Below are positions 35,829 through 47,711 of a DNA stretch of 53,605 nucleotides, one piece after another. Position numbers and translations under genes: made by a program. The stretch comes from an uncultured Neglectibacter sp. GTDB taxonomy: Bacteria; Bacillota; Clostridia; Oscillospirales; Acutalibacteraceae. The stretch lies in the NCBI GenBank assembly GCA_947647615.1, contig CANSKS010000014.1, forward strand, positions 1 through 53,605, written 5' to 3'. The first letter of the stretch is position 1. Every line of letters begins with the position of its first letter. Below the pieces are notes generated by a model. It did no database searches and was not told the origin of the DNA. It saw nothing but the letters and a program-made list of their open reading frames with translations.

Positions 35829-37349
35829 TTATTGGTATAATTGATCATTAGCAATTTTGTAACAATATTCCCAACGGCGAAAAGCTTTTTGATATGCCTC
35901 CACATTTTCGGGGATAGGTTCATATGTTTTGCTGACAAAAACACACTTTTCAATGGCCTCCGATACATTGGAATACAACCCTGCCCCTACTCCGGCGCAC
36001 ATTGCAGCACCCAAACATCCCAACTCCGACACCGCCGTAAGCTCTACGGGCCTTTGCAAAATATCGGCAAACATTTGGCACCACAAGGGGCTTTTTGTAA
36101 CACCGCCGCACAGCCGAATATTTTTGATGTTACCGGAAAGCTCCTCGTTCATGGCAAAAATATCTTTCATTTCAAAGCAGATCCCCTCCAAAATTGCCTC
36201 AGCGATATCTGCCTTCTTCGTCCCCAAGTTAATTCCTAAAAATGTTCCCCTGGCTTTCTCGTTCTTTTTCCGAGTATGTGACCCCTGCATACAGGTAAGG
36301 GCCGTGACCCCGTTGGCCCCCGGTTTGCTGTTGGAGGCTGTAGCCGTGATGATGTCGTAGGGGTCTACTCCCATTAAATTACCAGTGGCTACTTCCATTG
36401 CGCAAATTTCGTCACGGAACCACCGGAATGCGGAAGCACCGGTATTTGTCATAATATAGAACTGCCAGTTTCCCAGACCTGGGTTACTTCTTACGGTAAT
36501 CCTCCCATTAGGGTCGAAGGTCTTTTTTTCTGCAACCAGTAGGGAAACTCCCGCCGTCCCCATGATTAGGACTTGAGTTCCTGCGTCTTTGGCTCCGGCT
36601 CCCAAAGAATTACAGTTTGTATCAAGCCCACCCAGGCACACCTTACAGCCTACGGGCAACCCCGTTTTTTCGGCCACAGTTTCTGTCACATGGCCCACCA
36701 CCGTTCCGGGTGTGTGGCAAACCTTAGGAAGCATGTCTTCTTTTACATGATAAACATCCATTAACCGTTTATCCCATTCGTTGTCTTCCACACGGGCCAT
36801 ACTCAAAAAGTTTGTGCAGCCTTCGTCGATGTAGAACCCCTCTGCTCCATACTGCCGCAGGAAATAATCTTGGTGGGAACAAATACGTCGCACTTTTTTC
36901 CAAACCTCCGGCCGATTTTTTTGGAGCCATCGCAGAACCGGAATGTTATATGTGCCAAATTTCATACCGCTGAGCTTCCAATATTCCTCTAAATCCAATT
37001 CAGATTCAAGCTCTGGCAGCATATCTACATAGCGCAAATCCTGCCAGCCAATGGTGTTCTCCATTACTGGTTTTTCGTTTTCATCCAAAAGTACCATGGT
37101 AATTCCCTGGTTTGAATGACTGATCCCCAAAATATCTTTGGGGTCCACTTTCGATTTCTCTATGGTCTCCTTACATGCGCTGAACACACAGTCCCTAATC
37201 TCTTCTATCTTTTGCTCTACCCAACCGGGATGGGGGTAATAGCTGGGATACTCTCTAGCTGAGGAAGCCACCAATTCCCCTTTTTCTGTAAAAAGACAGG
37301 CTTTACAACCTGTAGTGCCCTCATCAATTCCCATCAAATATGCAGCCAT
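35829..37349 (-). CDS. FGGY-family carbohydrate (polyol/sugar) kinase
   Basis: A 506-residue FGGY kinase. The N-terminal phosphate loop is GIDEGTTGCKACLF, the first FGGY-type region includes QGITMVLLDEN and IGWQDLR (about 80-105), and the second domain has GLDTNCNSLGAGAKDAGT with the probable catalytic Asp, then MGTAGVSLL. It phosphorylates a sugar or polyol such as xylulose, ribulose, ribitol or glycerol; sequence alone does not decide which. Its start overlaps the end of the IspD-like gene region by spacing of one base (TAA-T-ATG), so the kinase and nucleotidyltransferase are translationally coupled. This suggests the phosphorylated product is then activated to a nucleotide derivative. Confidence 0.85.
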   Translation of the reverse strand: MAAYLMGIDEGTTGCKACLFTEKGELVASSAREYPSYYPHPGWVEQKIEEIRDCVFSACKETIEKSKVDPKDILGISHSNQGITMVLLDENEKPVMENTIGWQDLRYVDMLPELESELDLEEYWKLSGMKFGTYNIPVLRWLQKNRPEVWKKVRRICSHQDYFLRQYGAEGFYIDEGCTNFLSMARVEDNEWDKRLMDVYHVKEDMLPKVCHTPGTVVGHVTETVAEKTGLPVGCKVCLGGLDTNCNSLGAGAKDAGTQVLIMGTAGVSLLVAEKKTFDPNGRITVRSNPGLGNWQFYIMTNTGASAFRWFRDEICAMEVATGNLMGVDPYDIITATASNSKPGANGVTALTCMQGSHTRKKNEKARGTFLGINLGTKKADIAEAILEGICFEMKDIFAMNEELSGNIKNIRLCGGVTKSPLWCQMFADILQRPVELTAVSELGCLGAAMCAGVGAGLYSNVSEAIEKCVFVSKTYEPIPENVEAYQKAFRRWEYCYKIANDQLYQ

Positions 37350-37350
37350 A

Positions 37351-38061
37351 TTATAACTTCCTTTCCCATGCTAAGCATGCGGTAATAATGTCCAGATCGT
37401 CTTGCGTGGAAACATGCAGCTTGTTTTTTGGCGTGTCTTTCGATAAATACAGCGTTTCACCCATGGCTAAAAACAAGGTGGGTACATAAGACGCCGCCGA
37501 CATTTCAATACCTTCTTTATCGGCTTTTCGGAATAGCCTGTCAAAAGTACCGAAGGGCGCTGTCCAAGGCAGGTTCAAGGTTCTATGAGTCTCTTTAAAA
37601 TGAATGTTTCCGGACCTTAGCCCGTCAAAGGTCTCTGCATTATTATAAATACACTGCATCGCTGCAAAAGCATTGCCATGCTCCCGGCACACTCGGAAAG
37701 AATCTTCCATAATCTCTTCACTTACAAAAACGCTGGTGCTCATATTGAACATTAGAATATCCTCATCACGGCAAATTCCCTCCAGTTGAAAAATGCCGTT
37801 GCGTGCAGATTCTTGGCAGCTATCGCCTCCGGGAACCACCCATTTCAATTTTGAAATTCCATATTCTTCTGTGTATTTTTTTACCGCCTCTATGTATTCG
37901 GGAACACAAACAACCTCAATAGCGTCAATAAGCGGGGATTTTTCATAAATTTCCAAAGCGTAAACCATTAGGGGTTTCCCAAATACTTCTACAAACTGCT
38001 TTGGAATTCCCGCGCCAAGCCGCTGCCCGGTGCCACCTGCCAATAGAACTACCACATTCAC
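37351..38061 (-). CDS. IspD/TarI-like nucleotidyltransferase (divergent)
   Basis: A 236-residue GT-A-type nucleotidyltransferase with the signature LLAGGTGQRLGAGIPKQF at the N-terminus, PLMVYALEIYEKSPLIDAI, and a C-terminal dimer arm, all as in IspD and the TarI/Bcs1 CDP-polyol synthases. Two conserved places are altered. The IspD HDAARP-type loop, which holds metal and triphosphate, reads FNMSTSVF, and the GGxxR loop reads GGDSCQES. A changed donor or acceptor is possible, as is an inactive copy. The GTG at 38061 is preferred because AAGGGG lies eight bases upstream; a GTG at 38070 is the alternative. It lies between the CysC-like and FGGY genes. Confidence 0.78.
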   Translation of the reverse strand: MNVVVLLAGGTGQRLGAGIPKQFVEVFGKPLMVYALEIYEKSPLIDAIEVVCVPEYIEAVKKYTEEYGISKLKWVVPGGDSCQESARNGIFQLEGICRDEDILMFNMSTSVFVSEEIMEDSFRVCREHGNAFAAMQCIYNNAETFDGLRSGNIHFKETHRTLNLPWTAPFGTFDRLFRKADKEGIEMSAASYVPTLFLAMGETLYLSKDTPKNKLHVSTQDDLDIITACLAWERKL

Positions 38062-38079
38062 CCTTTTCACCCCTTGTTT

Positions 38080-38577
38080 CTATTTTCCGGCTCCCAATAG
38101 CCACTCTACAATAGCCTCGGGAAATTCACTTCCATCGTTTTCAATTACAATATCCGGCGCTTGTGGTTCATCGAAGGGCAAATCCAACCCAACCACATTT
38201 TTCCCAGAGGTATATAGCCCTTTTTGGTTTCGTTTCAGCAGCGTTTCCTTGCTGGCCTTTACATAGATCTCTTTATAATTTTCAATGTGTTCCCGGTTCC
38301 ACTCACGTACCCGGGAATACATGGAAATACTACAAATCACCACATCAATGCCCTGGTCTGCCAACAGCTTGCACAGCCGAAAGGCACGTTTGGCCCCTTT
38401 CATGCGGTCTTCATCGGAATATCCAATGTCTTCGCAAAACACCGTTCGTATTTGGTCGCCGTCAAACAAAGCAACATTCGACTTTGTTTCTTTCAAGCGC
38501 CGGTAAAACAGCCCTCCAATGGTGGTTTTGCCTGCGCCGGAAAGGCCGGTGAAGAAATATACAGTACCTTTTTCCAT
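38080..38577 (-). CDS. Adenylylsulfate kinase (CysC)-like kinase
   Basis: The 165-residue P-loop kinase has GLSGAGKTTIGG (about 13-24), then LFDGDQIRTVFCEDIGYS, as in APS kinases. The usual ISPxRxxR loop is replaced by ISMYSRVREWNRE, and the region after it reads HIENYKEIYVK. From memory this variant resembles CysC-like proteins of capsule loci such as Campylobacter Cj1415, which phosphorylate the 3'-OH of a CDP-linked donor rather than APS. No ATP sulfurylase gene occurs in the window. It is the second gene of the operon, ending a few bases before the nucleotidyltransferase gene. Start follows AGAAAGGA. Confidence 0.8.
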   Translation of the reverse strand: MEKGTVYFFTGLSGAGKTTIGGLFYRRLKETKSNVALFDGDQIRTVFCEDIGYSDEDRMKGAKRAFRLCKLLADQGIDVVICSISMYSRVREWNREHIENYKEIYVKASKETLLKRNQKGLYTSGKNVVGLDLPFDEPQAPDIVIENDGSEFPEAIVEWLLGAGK

Positions 38578-38596
38578 TTGTTTATCCTTTCTGCCG

Positions 38597-40606
38597 TCAG
38601 TGGTATAGGGGCTGTTCCAAGAGATCCGGGTCTAACTGCAGCTTAGGCATCATTTGCAGGGGCTGGCCGTTTTCGTTCACAAAACGCAGGCCGCGCATTA
38701 AAATATTGGTGACCTCAACCCGGTTTTCATGGTATTCCTTCAAACGTTTCTCCAGCATTTCCTGGCGAATCCATTCCGTCTCTTCCTGGGAAGCCTCCTG
38801 GCCATTGCGCTGCACTTCTACTGTGCTATATACGTTCTTCCAAGTCTCCCGCACATAGCGGTCTAAGGTTGTGAAATCCTCTATCAGCCCCATGATTTTT
38901 TCCTTATCCATCTCTTCGCCGTCATAATAATGAAAATCGTAGCCATAGAAGGCATACACGTCGCGCATAAAATATTCAATGTATTTTCGCTCACTGTCGT
39001 TGACATACTCGTCGTAGGTCCGGTAAACCGTAGCCGTGTCAAATCCCACAGCGTTCTTTATGCCGTAAACAGTCTGCGTTGGGTCGGTTTTTCCGTCTTC
39101 GGAGCAGTAGGTCAGGCTCTCCGTGTAGGGCAAATCTAAAAACGCCGCCAGCGCGGTAAAGGTGGCCTTGGGGTTCAATTTGCCGTCTTCAAAACGAACT
39201 AAAATACTGTCGTGGTAAAGGCGGTCTTCAGGGTCTAACATGAAGCTGCGGTTCAGTACCCTGTCTATCACCACGTTTCGCATGAGAAGGCTCTTCCCAT
39301 CCTCCTGCTCTGTAGCACTTTTATACATAAAACGCATAGACGCCCCGTGGCTGGTGGTGGGCCGGCGCATGGGAGTGAAGGTTTTGATATACTTAAACCC
39401 TTGGAAGATCGGGGAGCTGCGCACGTTGTCGTGCTCTTCCGAATGCAGCACGGCCCGGCCAGCCCGGTCTACATGCAGGTTATAGATGATGTTGTGAAAG
39501 TGAGGCTGGAAAAACAGCGCGGGGACAATCCGCGCGGCCTTGTCTGTATGTGTCGTCCCGCCCCTCTGGTTCAGGTATATGGCCACAAAATAGTCCTTGT
39601 CGCTGGGATCACGCATACTGTAGAGCTCCGCCACCAGCCGGGGATTCCAATCCACAAACATCTTAATCGCGTTTTGTAGGTTCCCCGCTTTTTTCAAATC
39701 TGACTTTAGTTTTTCCACCACCTCACCCACGCTGGACAGCATGACGGATGGCAGCGCTACCAGGTTGGGGTGGGCGTCGAATATTTCGTTGAAAAAGTCA
39801 CCGCCATTATGGCTGGAAAGCTGGGTGTGCCAAATAAGCCGGTTATATTCGCTGAGTGCCACCGGCCGAACCGGGAACTGGCTGTAATCAATGCCAAAAC
39901 GCTCCTTAAAATCGATAGGATACTGGGAAAGCTCGTCCTCTATGAGAAATACCACTTTGTCATTTTCCAGGAAAGGCTTCACATTCAGCACCTGAAGCCA
40001 CGCGCAAAAGGTTTCCCAGTTGGTATAGTGCAGGTAAACATGGTTTTCCCGGCCAACATCTTCACTTCTTCTCACGTTGTCGTTGAGATATTCCAGTTCA
40101 TACTGGGAGAATACATCCTTTGCCAGTATGGGCTTTTCTAAATCTCGGAAGAAATTGCGGCTGATTATCGTATCCCGTACATTCACGAATTCTTCAAACC
40201 GGCCCTCCGCCACATGGAACGGAAGGTAACCATGGTGGTCGTCATAAGGGAAAAACCGGATGGGAAGGTCTTCAAAATCAGGAAAATCCTTCCGGAACAA
40301 ATAGGGGTACTGCTCCAAACGCTTGCAATTCCGTTCATACCGGTTTTTCAAAAGCTGCGCGTTGGGTTCGTAAAAGGCCTGGGTCACAAGGGAAAGCATG
40401 TCTTCCCTGCAAAAGCCCTGGCGGTAAAGCTCTAAAAAGGTGGTATAGGATATACGGTAATCTCCGTTATTTTGCAGAATATAAAGGGCCGCTTCCAATT
40501 TTTCTTCCGGCCCTTCTTCCTGGTGAACGGCCAGACTGTAGGCCTTTAGGGCATCTTCTGTTTGGTTCAGGCCCGCCAAGCTGCGGGCGATTTCTAGGGA
40601 AGTCAT
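38597..40606 (-). CDS. Sulfotransferase-like protein with N-terminal helical region, next to flagellin
   Basis: A 669-residue protein. The first about 60 residues look helical and repeat-like (TPR-type), followed by a domain I do not recognise (about 85-230). From about 255 there is a sulfotransferase-like pattern: LSSHNGGDFFNEIFDAHPNL (about 263-282) resembles the donor-phosphate loop of the form RSGTTxxxxLLxxHP, and ILVRFEDGKLNPKATFTALA (about 468-487) matches the sulfotransferase VRYEDLxxxP element. No signal peptide or membrane helix is seen. It is first in the operon and transcribed after flagellin, so I infer that it transfers an activated group to flagellin or a surface glycan. The ATG at 40606 follows AAAGGAAC. 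Confidence 0.65.
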   Translation of the reverse strand: MTSLEIARSLAGLNQTEDALKAYSLAVHQEEGPEEKLEAALYILQNNGDYRISYTTFLELYRQGFCREDMLSLVTQAFYEPNAQLLKNRYERNCKRLEQYPYLFRKDFPDFEDLPIRFFPYDDHHGYLPFHVAEGRFEEFVNVRDTIISRNFFRDLEKPILAKDVFSQYELEYLNDNVRRSEDVGRENHVYLHYTNWETFCAWLQVLNVKPFLENDKVVFLIEDELSQYPIDFKERFGIDYSQFPVRPVALSEYNRLIWHTQLSSHNGGDFFNEIFDAHPNLVALPSVMLSSVGEVVEKLKSDLKKAGNLQNAIKMFVDWNPRLVAELYSMRDPSDKDYFVAIYLNQRGGTTHTDKAARIVPALFFQPHFHNIIYNLHVDRAGRAVLHSEEHDNVRSSPIFQGFKYIKTFTPMRRPTTSHGASMRFMYKSATEQEDGKSLLMRNVVIDRVLNRSFMLDPEDRLYHDSILVRFEDGKLNPKATFTALAAFLDLPYTESLTYCSEDGKTDPTQTVYGIKNAVGFDTATVYRTYDEYVNDSERKYIEYFMRDVYAFYGYDFHYYDGEEMDKEKIMGLIEDFTTLDRYVRETWKNVYSTVEVQRNGQEASQEETEWIRQEMLEKRLKEYHENRVEVTNILMRGLRFVNENGQPLQMMPKLQLDPDLLEQPLYH

Positions 40607-40645: not shown

Positions 40646-40664
40646 GCCGGGCACTGTGCCCGGC
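40646..40664 (-). other. GC-rich hairpin upstream of the modification operon
   Basis: A perfect 8-bp stem with three-base loop (GCCGGGCA/TGCCCGGC) lies 40 bases before the first gene of the operon. It could end flagellin-derived transcripts or form part of the leader; the following T-run is weak. Confidence 0.45.
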
Positions 40665-40706: not shown

Positions 40707-40755
40707 TTACTGGAGGAGCTGCAACACGCCTTGAGGCACCTGGTTCGCCTGGGCC
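40707..40755 (-). pseudogene. Isolated flagellin 3' end (fragment 1)
   Basis: On the minus strand this 49-base sequence encodes [15 protein letters not shown] and a stop, identical in protein to the end of the flagellin at 41062-42777. It differs from that gene by six bases, all at third codon positions and all silent. It is followed by a palindrome and has no gene body. The silent pattern suggests it came from a separate, once functional flagellin gene. Confidence 0.75.
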
Positions 40756-40763
40756 TCGTTCTC

Positions 40764-40792
40764 TCCCCACAGGAACTTCGTTCCTGTGGGGA
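40764..40792. repeat. Palindrome next to flagellin fragment 1
   Basis: A perfect 13-bp inverted repeat (TCCCCACAGGAAC with its complement, loop TTC). A nearly identical palindrome lies at 40977-41005. It is followed at 40798-40811 by a 14-base piece of flagellin coding sequence in the opposite orientation. Confidence 0.75.
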
Positions 40793-40848
40793 CCCCAGCC
40801 ATGCTGGCCCAAGCTAGGCAGCTACAGCAGTATTTGGAAGCTCATCAA

Positions 40849-40897
40849 TTACTGGAGGAGCTGTAATACACCCTGGGGAACCTGGTTCGCCTGGGCC
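40849..40897 (-). pseudogene. Isolated flagellin 3' end (fragment 2)
   Basis: On the minus strand this 49-base sequence is identical to the last 49 bases of the flagellin gene at 41062-42777, again coding [15 protein letters not shown] and stop. Homology to the flagellin ends abruptly after GGGCC, at the same point as in fragment 1. An unrelated 75-base sequence and then the second palindrome follow. Confidence 0.8.
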
Positions 40898-41061
40898 TCG
40901 TCGGAACGCGCCCTTGGGAACTCGCTGGGCCTTGCTTGCGCAAAGCCCGGCTTCGTTTTACGGGCGGTTCCTCCTCTCCCCACAGGAACTTCGTTCCCGC
41001 GGGGACCCCGGCCATGCTGGCCCAGGTTAAGCAGCCACTACAGCATTCTTAGCTTCTATAA
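40898..41061. repeat. Palindromic spacer between flagellin and fragment 2
   Basis: The spacer contains a 13-bp imperfect palindrome (40977-40989 with 40993-41005), a smaller stem around GGGCTTTGCGCAAGCAAGGCCC (minus strand, about 40917-40938), and an inverted 15-base flagellin piece at 41011-41025 that is the exact complement of 41104-41118 inside the flagellin gene. No ORF is evident. Confidence 0.6.
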
Positions 41062-42777
41062 TTACTGGAGGAGCTGTAATACACCCTGGGGAACCTGGTT
41101 CGCCTGGGCCAGCATGGCTTGGGCGGACTGGATGAGGATGTTGTTCTTGGTGTAGGCCATCATTTCCTGGGCGATATCGGTATCGCGGATGGAAGACTCG
41201 GCGTCGGTGATATTCTCGGCCATGACGCTCAAGTTGTTGGCGGTGTGGTCCAAACGGTTCTGGGTAGCGCCCAAGGTACCGCGAATGGAGGAAACCGTGT
41301 TGATAGCTGTCTTAATGGTATTTACTGCGGCAGCGGCTCCAGCCTGAGTGCCAATGTCAATGGCATCAATCTTCAAAGCGGCGCAGTGAATGTCGCCAAT
41401 AGAGACCTTCAGCTGGTTGTACGGGTCGGAGGTATCGCCGATCTGCAGGGTCAAGCCGCCGTTGCCAGCCTTAGCAGGAGTAGAATAACCCAGAGAAGCC
41501 TTAATGCCCTCTTCGGTGCGCAGGTCGAAATCGTTCTTGTTATCGAAGGTCTTGCCGGCGGTGTAGTAACCGGTAGCACGGGTTGCCTTTTCGGTAACAG
41601 TGAAGGTGTCGCCGCCATCATGACCTACGGTGTAGATGGTATTGCCAACAGCGGCCTTAGTCAGGCGCTCGAGAACATCGGAGATATAGGTGTCGCTGTT
41701 CTCGTCTAAGCCGGTCAGATCCACCTTGCCGGTGCCGGTCTCCTTGGCAAAGGTATAGGTGTCTTTGCCAATGCGGATGGAATTGCCTTCCGCGATCATG
41801 TCTTTGGTCACGGTGACGCGGGTGCTGGCCAGACGGGCGTCGTTGGCTGCATCTCCCTTCGTCTGAATGTTGGTGGTAGACACGTTGTAATCTGCCTGCA
41901 CAAAGCTGTCGTCGGCAGTGGTGGCATCTACAGCGTCGGCAGCAGTAACAGCGTCTTTGCCTGCGGTTTTCTCAGTGAGCGTTAAGCCTGCTACAGTTGG
42001 CGCGGTGGCCACAGCACCAGCGGTAGTCTTAGTATAGGTGATGGTGAACGTACCAGCCTGTGTTCCGGCGGCAATCCCTCCGGTATATCCCGTGAGAGCG
42101 GGTGCGTTCTTAGTTGCTGCATCTACCGCGGCTTTTGCAGCAGTCGCACCCGCAGCAGTGCTGGCAGTAAGTGTAACAGAAGCAACCGCCACACCGCCGA
42201 TCTTCAGGGTATATTTGCTACCAGCAGTCAGATTCCCTTCATAGGTCACAGCTAGGTTCTTGGCCTCATATACAGCGTTCACAGCAGCAGCGGAAGCCAC
42301 AGCAGCCTTACCGCCCTTCAAGCCGGTGATCTCTACTTTCATGTCACCCTTGACAATGGCGTCCGCTGCGTTGGTCTGGGTGAAGGTTAAGGTGGAACCA
42401 GTGCCGCTCAAGGTAAACTCTACGCCGCCGATGGTGGCCTTGCCTGCGGTCATAGCGTTGCCGTCAGCATCCTTAAATTTACCGTCCTTAAAAGCCTTAA
42501 CGATGTCAGAGGCAGACATTTTGGTGCCTGCGGCAACTGTGCCCGCACCGGCCTGATAGGTGAACTCGTCGTCGCCAATTTTGATCTTCAAACCAGTGCC
42601 GGTAGCATTGGCAAAGCCCTGGTTGTGCAGTTCAACGGAGAAGATGGTCTTGGAAGCCACAGTGCCGGCATCCTTATGGAGCACTGTGTCGGTGCCCAGG
42701 GTCTGGCCTACTGCGGGCAGGTCAGAGAAGCTGCTGTTAACAGCGGCAACGCCGTCGGCGGAAAGAGAGCCGTCCAA
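41062..42777 (-). CDS. Flagellin lacking the conserved N-terminal domain
   Basis: The 571-residue frame has the complete flagellin C-terminal domain ([37 protein letters not shown] and the end [13 protein letters not shown]) and a long, Ala/Thr/Gly-rich surface domain. The usual D0/D1 N-terminus (about the first 115 residues) is absent. The frame begins right after a TAA, in KLLDGS, which normally follows that N-terminus. The only start is a TTG with no ribosome-binding site. Upstream DNA belongs to a divergent gene. It cannot polymerise normally. It is either a pseudogene, a silent donor cassette, or an assembly artefact at a repeated flagellin 5' end. Confidence 0.8.
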
Positions 42778-42821
42778 CAGCTTTTAGAAATAGAGCTGTA
42801 ATTTCCCCCTTGGCCCCAGTG

Positions 42822-46895: not shown

Positions 46896-47711
46896 TTACG
46901 CCAGCAGCCAGTCCAGCTCCAAAGGCCAGGCCGCCAGGGCAATCTCGGGCTTTACCCGTTCCCCGTGGAAATCGCTGCCGCCGGTAACCCCCAGCCGGTA
47001 CTTTTTCGCCAGGCCAAGGTAAAAATCTGTTTGCTCCCCGGTGTGGCGGGGGTAATAGCACTCCAGCCCGTCCAGGCCTGCCTTTTTTAGCCCGGCCACT
47101 GCCTGCTCCAGCTCCTCCGCCGGAAGGCCCAGCTGGTAAGGATGGGCCAGCACGGCTTTTCCCCCGGCGCTGTGAATGGCGGCAATACACTCTTTTGCTC
47201 CGGCCTTGAACCGTTCCAGCCTCTGGTATTCTTCGGTATCTAAATAACGGTCAAAGGCCTCCCGGGTGGTTTTTACATACCCGGCTTCCACCATAGCTCG
47301 GGCAAAATGGGGCCTGGCAATTACGTTTCCCCCTGCCATAGCCTCTACCGCCTCTAAGGCAACGGGAACGCCCTTTTCCTGCAAAAAGGCCAAAATGCGG
47401 TATTTCCGCTCATCCCGGCTTTTGCGAAGCTTTTCGCACAGGGAAGAAAGCTCTCCCCTGTGGGGCTGGAACCCATACCCCAGAATGTGCAGGTACCGGT
47501 GTTCTTTCGCCCCCAGTTCTATGCCCCGCAGCACCAAAAGCCCCAAGGCTTCCCCTGCGGCAAGGGCTTCCTCTGCCCCTTCTTCGGTATCGTGGTCGGT
47601 AACGGCCAGGCACTCCACCCCTGCGGCCTTGGCCTTTTCCACCAAAGCCTTTGGGGAATACTGGCCGTCGGAGGCCGTGGTGTGAGTGTGTAAATCGGAA
47701 AAATATTTCAT
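46896..47711 (-). CDS. PHP-domain phosphoesterase (RNase AM / nucleoside bisphosphatase-like)
   Basis: The 271-residue protein has the four PHP motifs: DLHTHTTASDG at residue 5, TDHDTEE near 40, ARPHFARAMV near 130 and GGSDFHGE near 240, which provide the trinuclear metal site. The architecture is that of the YciV/RnmA group, which removes phosphate or nucleotides from the 5' end of short RNAs or hydrolyses 3',5'-nucleoside bisphosphates. The ATG at 47711 follows GGAAAGG. It is a separate unit upstream of the SPFH operon. If the CysC-like operon yields 3'-phosphonucleotide by-products, such an enzyme could recycle them; this is speculation. Confidence 0.82.
   Translation of the reverse strand: MKYFSDLHTHTTASDGQYSPKALVEKAKAAGVECLAVTDHDTEEGAEEALAAGEALGLLVLRGIELGAKEHRYLHILGYGFQPHRGELSSLCEKLRKSRDERKYRILAFLQEKGVPVALEAVEAMAGGNVIARPHFARAMVEAGYVKTTREAFDRYLDTEEYQRLERFKAGAKECIAAIHSAGGKAVLAHPYQLGLPAEELEQAVAGLKKAGLDGLECYYPRHTGEQTDFYLGLAKKYRLGVTGGSDFHGERVKPEIALAAWPLELDWLLA

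Follow-up and report, generated by a model that had tools for sequence, protein, structure and literature searches.

A flagellin-linked transferase and CysC-like kinase with exchangeable donor genes: a probable modular flagellin-modification system in Neglectibacter and its relatives

In the capsule pathway of Campylobacter jejuni that comprises Cj1415 to Cj1422, the enzymes Cj1415 to Cj1418 make cytidine diphosphate (CDP)-phosphoramidate 3'-phosphate, a compound still called the likely donor of O-methyl phosphoramidate (MeOPN) (PMC11800397). A comparable donor may serve flagellin in the 53,605-nucleotide stretch of DNA considered here (‘the window’; contig CANSKS010000014.1 of assembly GCA_947647615.1, from an uncultured Neglectibacter species), where a four-gene operon encodes a 669-residue protein (ST669), a CysC-like kinase, an IspD-like nucleotidyltransferase and an FGGY kinase. 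The likeness would lie in a CDP-linked donor with a 3'-phosphate; the differences are that the genes are linked here to flagellin rather than to a capsule, that ST669 is constant, and that the donor genes, outside one of the loci compared below (L032), are other ones.

Clusters for sulfation by way of 3'-phosphoadenosine 5'-phosphosulfate (PAPS), such as cluster VI of C. jejuni HS:19, which includes an anion permease (PMC8743553), are resembled by three of the 34 loci compared below, which likewise combine an ATP sulfurylase with a proline-type adenosine 5'-phosphosulfate (APS) kinase; in contrast, no sulfurylase is seen in the remaining 31 cassettes (some of them cut short), and ST669 falls below the sulfotransferase cut-offs of Pfam and NCBIfam. 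The work on phosphonyl tailoring by PntC (PMC6697681) is echoed here by fusions of phosphoenolpyruvate (PEP) mutase with PF01467, either alone or together with PF12804, and by a presumed cytidine monophosphate (CMP)-activated phosphonate; its main text, however, contains none of the terms CysC, APS kinase, kinase or ‘flagell-’, and the neighbours that it describes are LicD-like phosphotransferases and glycosyltransferases. The type A modification of Clostridioides difficile flagellin (CD0240 to CD0244; PMC10714395, PMC8861647) also involves a phosphodiester-linked small molecule and a proposed CDP-linked donor, but the group is attached to N-acetylglucosamine on FliC, a TagF-like transferase is proposed, and the available text mentions neither a nucleotide kinase step nor swappable cassettes; 2-aminoethylphosphonate (AEP) has also been detected on the flagellin of C. 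difficile, where its origin is unsettled (PMC8861647). Caulobacter FlmG combines a flagellin-binding tetratricopeptide repeat (TPR) N-terminus with a C-terminal transferase, which differs in being a GT-B glycosyltransferase that adds pseudaminic acid (PMC7591256). Within the open set of PubMed Central, no paper was found that combines CysC, flagellin, a cytidylyltransferase and a sulfotransferase, and no such system appears to have been described, a judgement made mostly from titles and the openings of abstracts.

We propose, with a probability of roughly 0.6, that the window’s operon belongs to one modular flagellin-modification system, in which ST669, a CysC-like kinase and a swappable ‘donor cassette’ transfer an acidic group to flagellin, so that a single sulfotransferase-like chemistry probably decorates the flagellum with varied acidic groups. 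The more specific idea that a single ST669 family uses donors differing in kind (sulfate, phosphonate, phospho-sugar and possibly a methyl-phosphoramidate-like group), all sharing a 3'-phosphonucleotide ‘handle’ installed by a CysC-type kinase suited to the nucleotide in question, is advanced tentatively, at a little short of even odds.

The operon described in the initial annotation is real: four minus-strand open reading frames (ORFs), spanning 35829-40606 directly after flagellin sequence, are separated by 19, 9 and 1 base pairs (bp) in the order ST669, CysC-like, IspD-like, FGGY (Table 1). The open frame of ST669 extends past its ATG to a GTG at 40654, and the operon is richer in A+T than the window as a whole (G+C of 0.44-0.50 versus 0.537). 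Three of the four family labels hold up above Pfam cut-offs: the CysC-like protein (PF01583, 108.8 bits against 21.1, with the P-loop GAGKTT), the IspD-like protein (PF01128, 45 bits against 27) and the FGGY kinase (PF00370, 159.5 bits; PF02782, 97.6 bits). The label of ST669 as ‘sulfotransferase-like’ corresponds to a weak resemblance, which is weighed below.

Comparison with other genomes yielded 34 distinct ST669 loci, including the window, after the removal of duplicates (L062, L064 and L072 repeat L003, L010 and L005, respectively) and of short views of places already included (L001, L002, L015-L027 and L041-L061). These loci are not independent, because L028 and L071, and likewise L030, L031 and L069, are closely related. 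Labels for neighbouring genes came from BLAST comparison with a reference set, and Pfam and NCBIfam models were run on part of the ORFs. Kept apart was L068 (2551-3090, in genome G932), a short ORF with about 30% identity to the C-terminal region of ST669 and no flagellin or CysC match in the 9 kb of sequence covered. At the level of the genus, 9 of 29 sampled whole genomes had ST669; the samples of the family and the order gave 8 of 398 and 12 of 394, respectively (two of the latter through fragments, one of these a distant 30% match and the other truncated at a contig end), and the sample of the class gave 1 of 391, namely the window’s own; a species collection yielded 11 loci. The window’s genome carries a second ST669 copy, 58% identical, which is preceded by flagellin and followed by a CysC-methyltransferase fusion.

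Across these loci a core of flagellin, ST669 and CysC is nearly invariant. Flagellin lies upstream of ST669, on the same strand and within 460 bp, in all 30 scored loci with an uncut flank (L011 and L039, cut by contig ends, and L040 and L073, in which only the tail of ST669 is present, being excluded), which bears out the flagellin linkage first noted at the window. The start of CysC falls 8-40 bp past ST669 in 29 of 32 scored loci and 201 bp past it in L011; an FkbM-type gene intervenes in L004, L070 has no CysC nearby, and in both tail-only loci CysC again comes next. Because CysC thus follows ST669 in 33 of 34 distinct loci, once with an intervening gene, their adjacency is not due to chance. 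Even the exception fits the proposal: in the complete genome of L070 (G790), flagellin, ST669 and a gene of the PHP phosphoesterase family lie at 177 kb, and CysC, IspD and a short-chain dehydrogenase/reductase (SDR) lie together (L095) at 1.43 Mb, unlinked and 1.25 Mb away. The idea that all four genes form one conserved unit did not survive: the exact set recurs only in L008 (IspD-like 66% and FGGY 70% identical), making 2 of 34 loci, and the IspD-like and FGGY genes are the interchangeable part. A tandem flagellin pair and an FkbM-type pair, each pair alike in length and start, were seen in L034 (1429-3576 and 12193-14400).

What follows the core varies from locus to locus (Table 1). An ATP sulfurylase stands directly after CysC in three loci; the copy in L007 is split over two frames, and that in L037 exceeds the NF003166 cut-off (418.1 against 387 bits) and narrowly misses TIGR00339 (307.1 against 322.95). 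Four loci carry phosphonate sets, all with nucleotidyltransferase-type domains: PEP mutase is above cut-off in L006, L009 and L073 and below it in the contig-end-cut copy of L063, phosphonopyruvate decarboxylase is above cut-off in L009 and L073, AEP aminotransferase in L063, and an iron alcohol dehydrogenase in L009 scores below every model cut-off. The set in L032 presumably resembles the glutamine-kinase set of Campylobacter and, by this analogy, is possibly a phosphoramidate cassette. These comparisons lend support to the broader notion that a sulfotransferase-like enzyme uses a 3'-phosphonucleotide donor, the same slot holding PEP mutase with cytidylyltransferase genes, or ATP sulfurylase, at other loci. 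Two further observations concern cassette contents: the sulfurylase cassettes of L007 (12035-16961) and L037 (5677-10717) include a PF00999-type transporter and a pyruvate-kinase-barrel gene, the former possibly for sulfate uptake by analogy with the anion permease of C. jejuni HS:19, and in the phosphonate cassette of L073 (4980-6437) a radical-SAM-like domain, below cut-offs, is fused to a cytidylyltransferase-like domain.

Swapping is indicated by a conflict between trees. The ST669 tree covers 30 of the 34 loci (without L011, L013, L040 and L073, and with L008 and L039 partial), and the CysC tree 32 (without L065 and L070). On the former, the sulfurylase loci are split among three positions, each of them required by well-supported branches, and in trees of four ST669 sub-regions their rows never come together (L039 being present in only two of the four); on the latter, the sulfurylase-linked kinases form a single clade with 100/100 support on a long branch. 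Because the same loci are split on one tree and united on the other, the donor genes appear to have been swapped under one transferase family. The fusion class likewise requires six changes on the ST669 tree, five of them forced, and the nearest relative of the window’s ST669 (L003, 76% identical) bears a different cassette. All classes together need 12 changes on the CysC tree, against 19.8 for shuffled labels.

The kinase carries a residue signature that parallels this split. Six solved APS-kinase chains (five proteins) that were aligned all have SP in the (I/V)SP motif; the window’s kinase has ISM instead, and all 21 non-sulfurylase kinases that were aligned have methionine at the proline position, whereas the three sulfurylase-linked kinases have ISP or IAP (the count covers 24 of 33 kinases). 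This division agrees with a kinase that would follow sulfate versus non-sulfate donors. The window’s kinase thus differs, as initially suspected, from the APS kinases compared, in motif and in lying outside the sulfurylase-linked clade. It also misses the TIGR00455 equivalog (117 against 138.7 bits), a miss that does not discriminate, because the sulfurylase-linked kinase of L037 misses it too (123.6), along with NF004041 (101.5). The window’s genome has only two close CysC homologs, and both adjoin ST669.

From the observed gene content, order and linkage, the tree conflict, the residue split and the failure to find a sulfurylase in the window’s genome, we infer the reactions, the acceptor, the fold of ST669 and the kind of sugar as follows. 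ST669 would bind flagellin through its N-terminal TPR-like part and move a sulfo, phosphono or phospho group onto it from a 3'-phosphonucleotide donor by sulfotransferase-like chemistry, the CysC-like kinase having installed the 3'-phosphate on the donor ribose; Cj1415, which we take to be a CysC homolog, would be its Campylobacter counterpart. Sulfurylase cassettes would produce APS and then PAPS; PEP mutase with a cytidylyltransferase, a CMP-phosphonate; and IspD-type enzymes with kinases or dehydrogenases, CDP-linked phospho-polyols or sugars. Since a sulfurylase and a normal APS kinase are expected to give PAPS, and ST669 is its nearest possible user, parsimony suggests that the non-sulfate cassettes make donors with the same handle. 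In the window, the FGGY kinase would phosphorylate a sugar or polyol, the IspD-like protein would link the product to CMP, the CysC-like kinase would add a 3'-phosphate to the CDP-linked product, and ST669 would transfer the phospho-sugar or phospho-polyol to flagellin, releasing 3',5'-cytidine bisphosphate for possible recycling by a PHP phosphatase. A PHP gene accompanies the cassette, within it or behind it, in 18 of 34 loci (downstream on the same strand in 17 of 32 scored, plus L040), and fits the system because the expected by-product is a 3',5'-bisphosphonucleotide.

Of these steps the linkage to CMP is the least certain in the window, because its IspD-like protein lacks the HDxxRP motif, whose aspartate has a role in IspD-type enzymes; thus, of the CDP activation of IspD/TarI type that was first assigned to it, the nucleotide-binding signature AGG-x-G-x-R...PKQ is present (LLAGGTGQRLGAGIPKQF), and the plain reaction is uncertain. 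The best NCBIfam model is missed (73.8 against 253 bits). Nine class-C-type sequences (eight loci and L095) keep the motif, as HDAIRP or HDGIRP, and its aspartate is retained in L012 (QDAVRP) and L004 (LDAVQP). The FGGY kinase matches no specific equivalog (xylulokinase, gluconokinase or glycerol kinase), the best being XylB at 283.5 against 380.25 bits.

A number of observations weigh against the proposal as a whole, several of them concerning ST669, whose sulfotransferase fold is unproven. The protein matches no Pfam or NCBIfam family at curated cut-offs; two AlphaFold models are poor (mean predicted local distance difference test, pLDDT, of 57.4 and 49.7), fold searches with them returned nothing significant, and no ST669 residue follows the sulfate donor above background. 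The canonical 5'-phosphosulfate-binding (5'-PSB) loop of sulfotransferases reads (K/R)SGT; at the corresponding place, as located by a low-stringency alignment, nearly every ST669 member has HNGGDFFNE instead, and that of L032 has HNCINFFAE. What resemblance there is points, weakly, in one direction. PF13469 (Sulfotransfer_3) is the Pfam family matched by most ST669 members, all weakly (5 of 30, with E up to 0.5 and a best value of 0.0044, or 17.7 bits against a cut-off of 27), PF00685 is matched by 2 of 30 (best E 0.014, below cut-off), and the window’s own ST669 matches neither. A search of 177,635 solved sequences with the ST669 profile gave only two matches, both TEG12 sulfotransferases, at E of about 1; among 12 profiles compared by hhalign, that of five sulfotransferases scored best (P 0.012), with flagellin next (P 0.053), and an alignment to 14 sulfotransferases, these five included, gave P 0.0025 with a probability of only 12%. 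The stretch VRFEDGKLNP aligns with the C-terminal R-x-E-D region of TEG12 and of the 14 sulfotransferases at these same levels. The non-significant fold matches include tyrosylprotein sulfotransferase (3ap3/3ap1) and many TPR proteins, the N-terminal 140 residues being modelled as mostly helical (pLDDT about 77-89).

The remaining contrary points concern the trees and the cassettes. Cassettes are not randomly distributed on the ST669 tree (16 changes for all classes, against a shuffled mean of 18.7), and class C in particular is clustered there (5 changes for 10 rows, against 8.6). The phosphonate kinases are scattered on the CysC tree, where their 4 rows require 4 changes, of which at least 3 are forced, so that the kinase tracks sulfate versus the rest and not each donor. 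BLAST found no reference nucleotidyltransferase in the cassettes of the six fusion loci and of L067; the window’s genome holds two further marginal PF01583 matches (E 6e-4 and 9e-4); and the window’s own PHP gene lies 6-7 kb upstream, outside the operon, to which it may be unrelated.

Under plain sulfation, the CysC-like protein would be an APS kinase and ST669 a sulfotransferase that uses PAPS, with the IspD-like and FGGY proteins belonging to a separate glycan pathway. The high PF01583 score, a score above cut-off for the ‘adenylyl-sulfate kinase’ model NF004041 (159.2 against 127 bits), and the presence in 10 of 16 ST669 genomes searched of PF01507, the CysD/PAPS reductase family, through which those ten could have a CysD-type sulfurylase, all favour it, as do the three sister loci in which ATP sulfurylase and a PAPS-type kinase, the combination that the initial annotation had named as the sign of plain sulfation, do occur together. 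In the window’s genome (G000, 94.8% complete), however, neither PF01747 (ATP sulfurylase) nor PF01507 was found, whereas the same searches matched 5 of 14 and 14 of 14 control genomes, respectively; the absence of a sulfurylase is strong evidence and not absolute, because the genome is not fully complete. Of the 16 ST669 genomes, three yielded an ATP sulfurylase, always inside the ST669 cassette. Taken with the Met-type kinase of the window and the phosphonate and cytidylyltransferase genes that fill the sulfurylase slot elsewhere, these results make plain sulfation at the window’s locus highly improbable. A flagellin glycosylation island, in which ST669 would be a glycosyltransferase-like or other transferase, the CDP donor would be used directly or by another enzyme, and the CysC-like kinase would act on some other small molecule, is also unlikely, though less sharply so. 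No fold of ST669 is recognised, its TPR-plus-transferase architecture is like that of FlmG (PMC7591256), L029 continues into an epimerase and a sugar-type nucleoside triphosphate transferase gene, and L095 into what appear by eye to be sugar genes; yet CysC alone stays beside ST669 whatever follows, the product expected with ATP sulfurylase is PAPS, which sulfotransferases use, and the matches of ST669 to sulfotransferases, if weak, are repeated.

It is also quite improbable that the window’s locus is simply a decayed or non-functional copy, a reading suggested by a flagellin that begins at about residue 135 of the full protein, by the imperfect tail repeats beside it (Table 1), and by the loss of HDxxRP. 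The conserved flagellin N-terminus was not found elsewhere in the window by tblastn, and its loss, like that of the IspD-like motif, tells against the modular system as well. But the break, if not a rearrangement, could be an assembly fault at a repeated gene, the ST669, CysC-like and FGGY genes are open and full length, and the altered IspD-like motif (FNMSTS) recurs in L013 (FNMSTS) and L008 (FGMSTS) at 81 and 66% identity; this shared change suggests selection rather than decay. The modular system remains our preferred reading, and the initial annotation is best viewed as right about the operon and as sound in its 3'-phosphonucleotide principle, but too narrow in its four-gene unit, the system being a wider one with a flagellin-ST669-CysC core and exchangeable donor genes.

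The assignment of the window’s PHP protein is likewise approximate: its best NCBIfam model, NF041577 (3',5'-nucleoside bisphosphate phosphatase), is missed (178.2 against 400 bits) and nearly tied with the RNase RNM model (174.7 against 375 bits), and 2yb1 is among its four solved homologs, although not the nearest one.

Table 1. Features of the window and types of cassette at the ST669 loci (aa, amino acids; SAM, S-adenosylmethionine)
Feature	Position or loci	Strand	Number of loci
ST669 (669 aa from ATG): N-terminal TPR-like helices and putative sulfotransferase-like transferase domain; constant gene	38597..40606	-	
CysC-like kinase, 165 aa, APS-kinase family, ‘ISMY’ replacing ‘ISPY’; proposed to phosphorylate the 3' position of a cytidine-linked donor; constant gene	38080..38577	-	
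IspD-like nucleotidyltransferase, 239 aa, GTG start; variable cassette; nucleotide-binding signature kept, HDxxRP lost	37351..38070	-	
FGGY carbohydrate/polyol kinase, 506 aa; variable cassette; GGLD motif present	35829..37349	-	
Flagellin without N-terminal ~134 residues; presumed acceptor family	41062..42783	-	
Repeated copies of flagellin 3' end and of the spacer after it, located between the flagellin gene and ST669	40707..41110	-	
PHP-family phosphoesterase, homolog of the cassette PHP gene; candidate for hydrolysis of 3',5'-bisphosphonucleotide by-product	46899..47702	-	
Sulfurylase cassettes	L007, L037, L039		3
Window-type IspD-like	Window and L008 with FGGY; L013, contig end ~190 bp after IspD-like		3
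IspD and SDR	Nine loci, plus L030 and L031 cut inside IspD		11
Phosphonate sets	L006, L009, L063, L073		4
Phosphonopyruvate-decarboxylase relative upstream of flagellin, counted apart	L067		1
Methyltransferase, PEP-synthase-like (NF004508, 908 bits, cut-off 501) and LicC-like nucleotidyltransferase, after CysC	L032, 5027-10985		1
CysC-methyltransferase fusion (SAM methyltransferase)	L003, L010, L014, L033, L065, L066		6
Single forms	L035, L004, L012, L040, L070		5

As far as the literature searched shows, a 3'-phosphorylated CDP donor is documented for the MeOPN of Campylobacter; here the same donor logic seems common to sulfate, phosphonate and phospho-sugar under one transferase family, with the gene of the presumed acceptor adjoining. 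The exchange of cassettes under a constant transferase makes the question of the donor testable through the mass of the flagellin. If the proposal is true, it would provide a route to phosphonate on flagellin and, more generally, a ‘PAPS-like’ donor logic for phosphorus groups that would diversify flagellin in gut bacteria.

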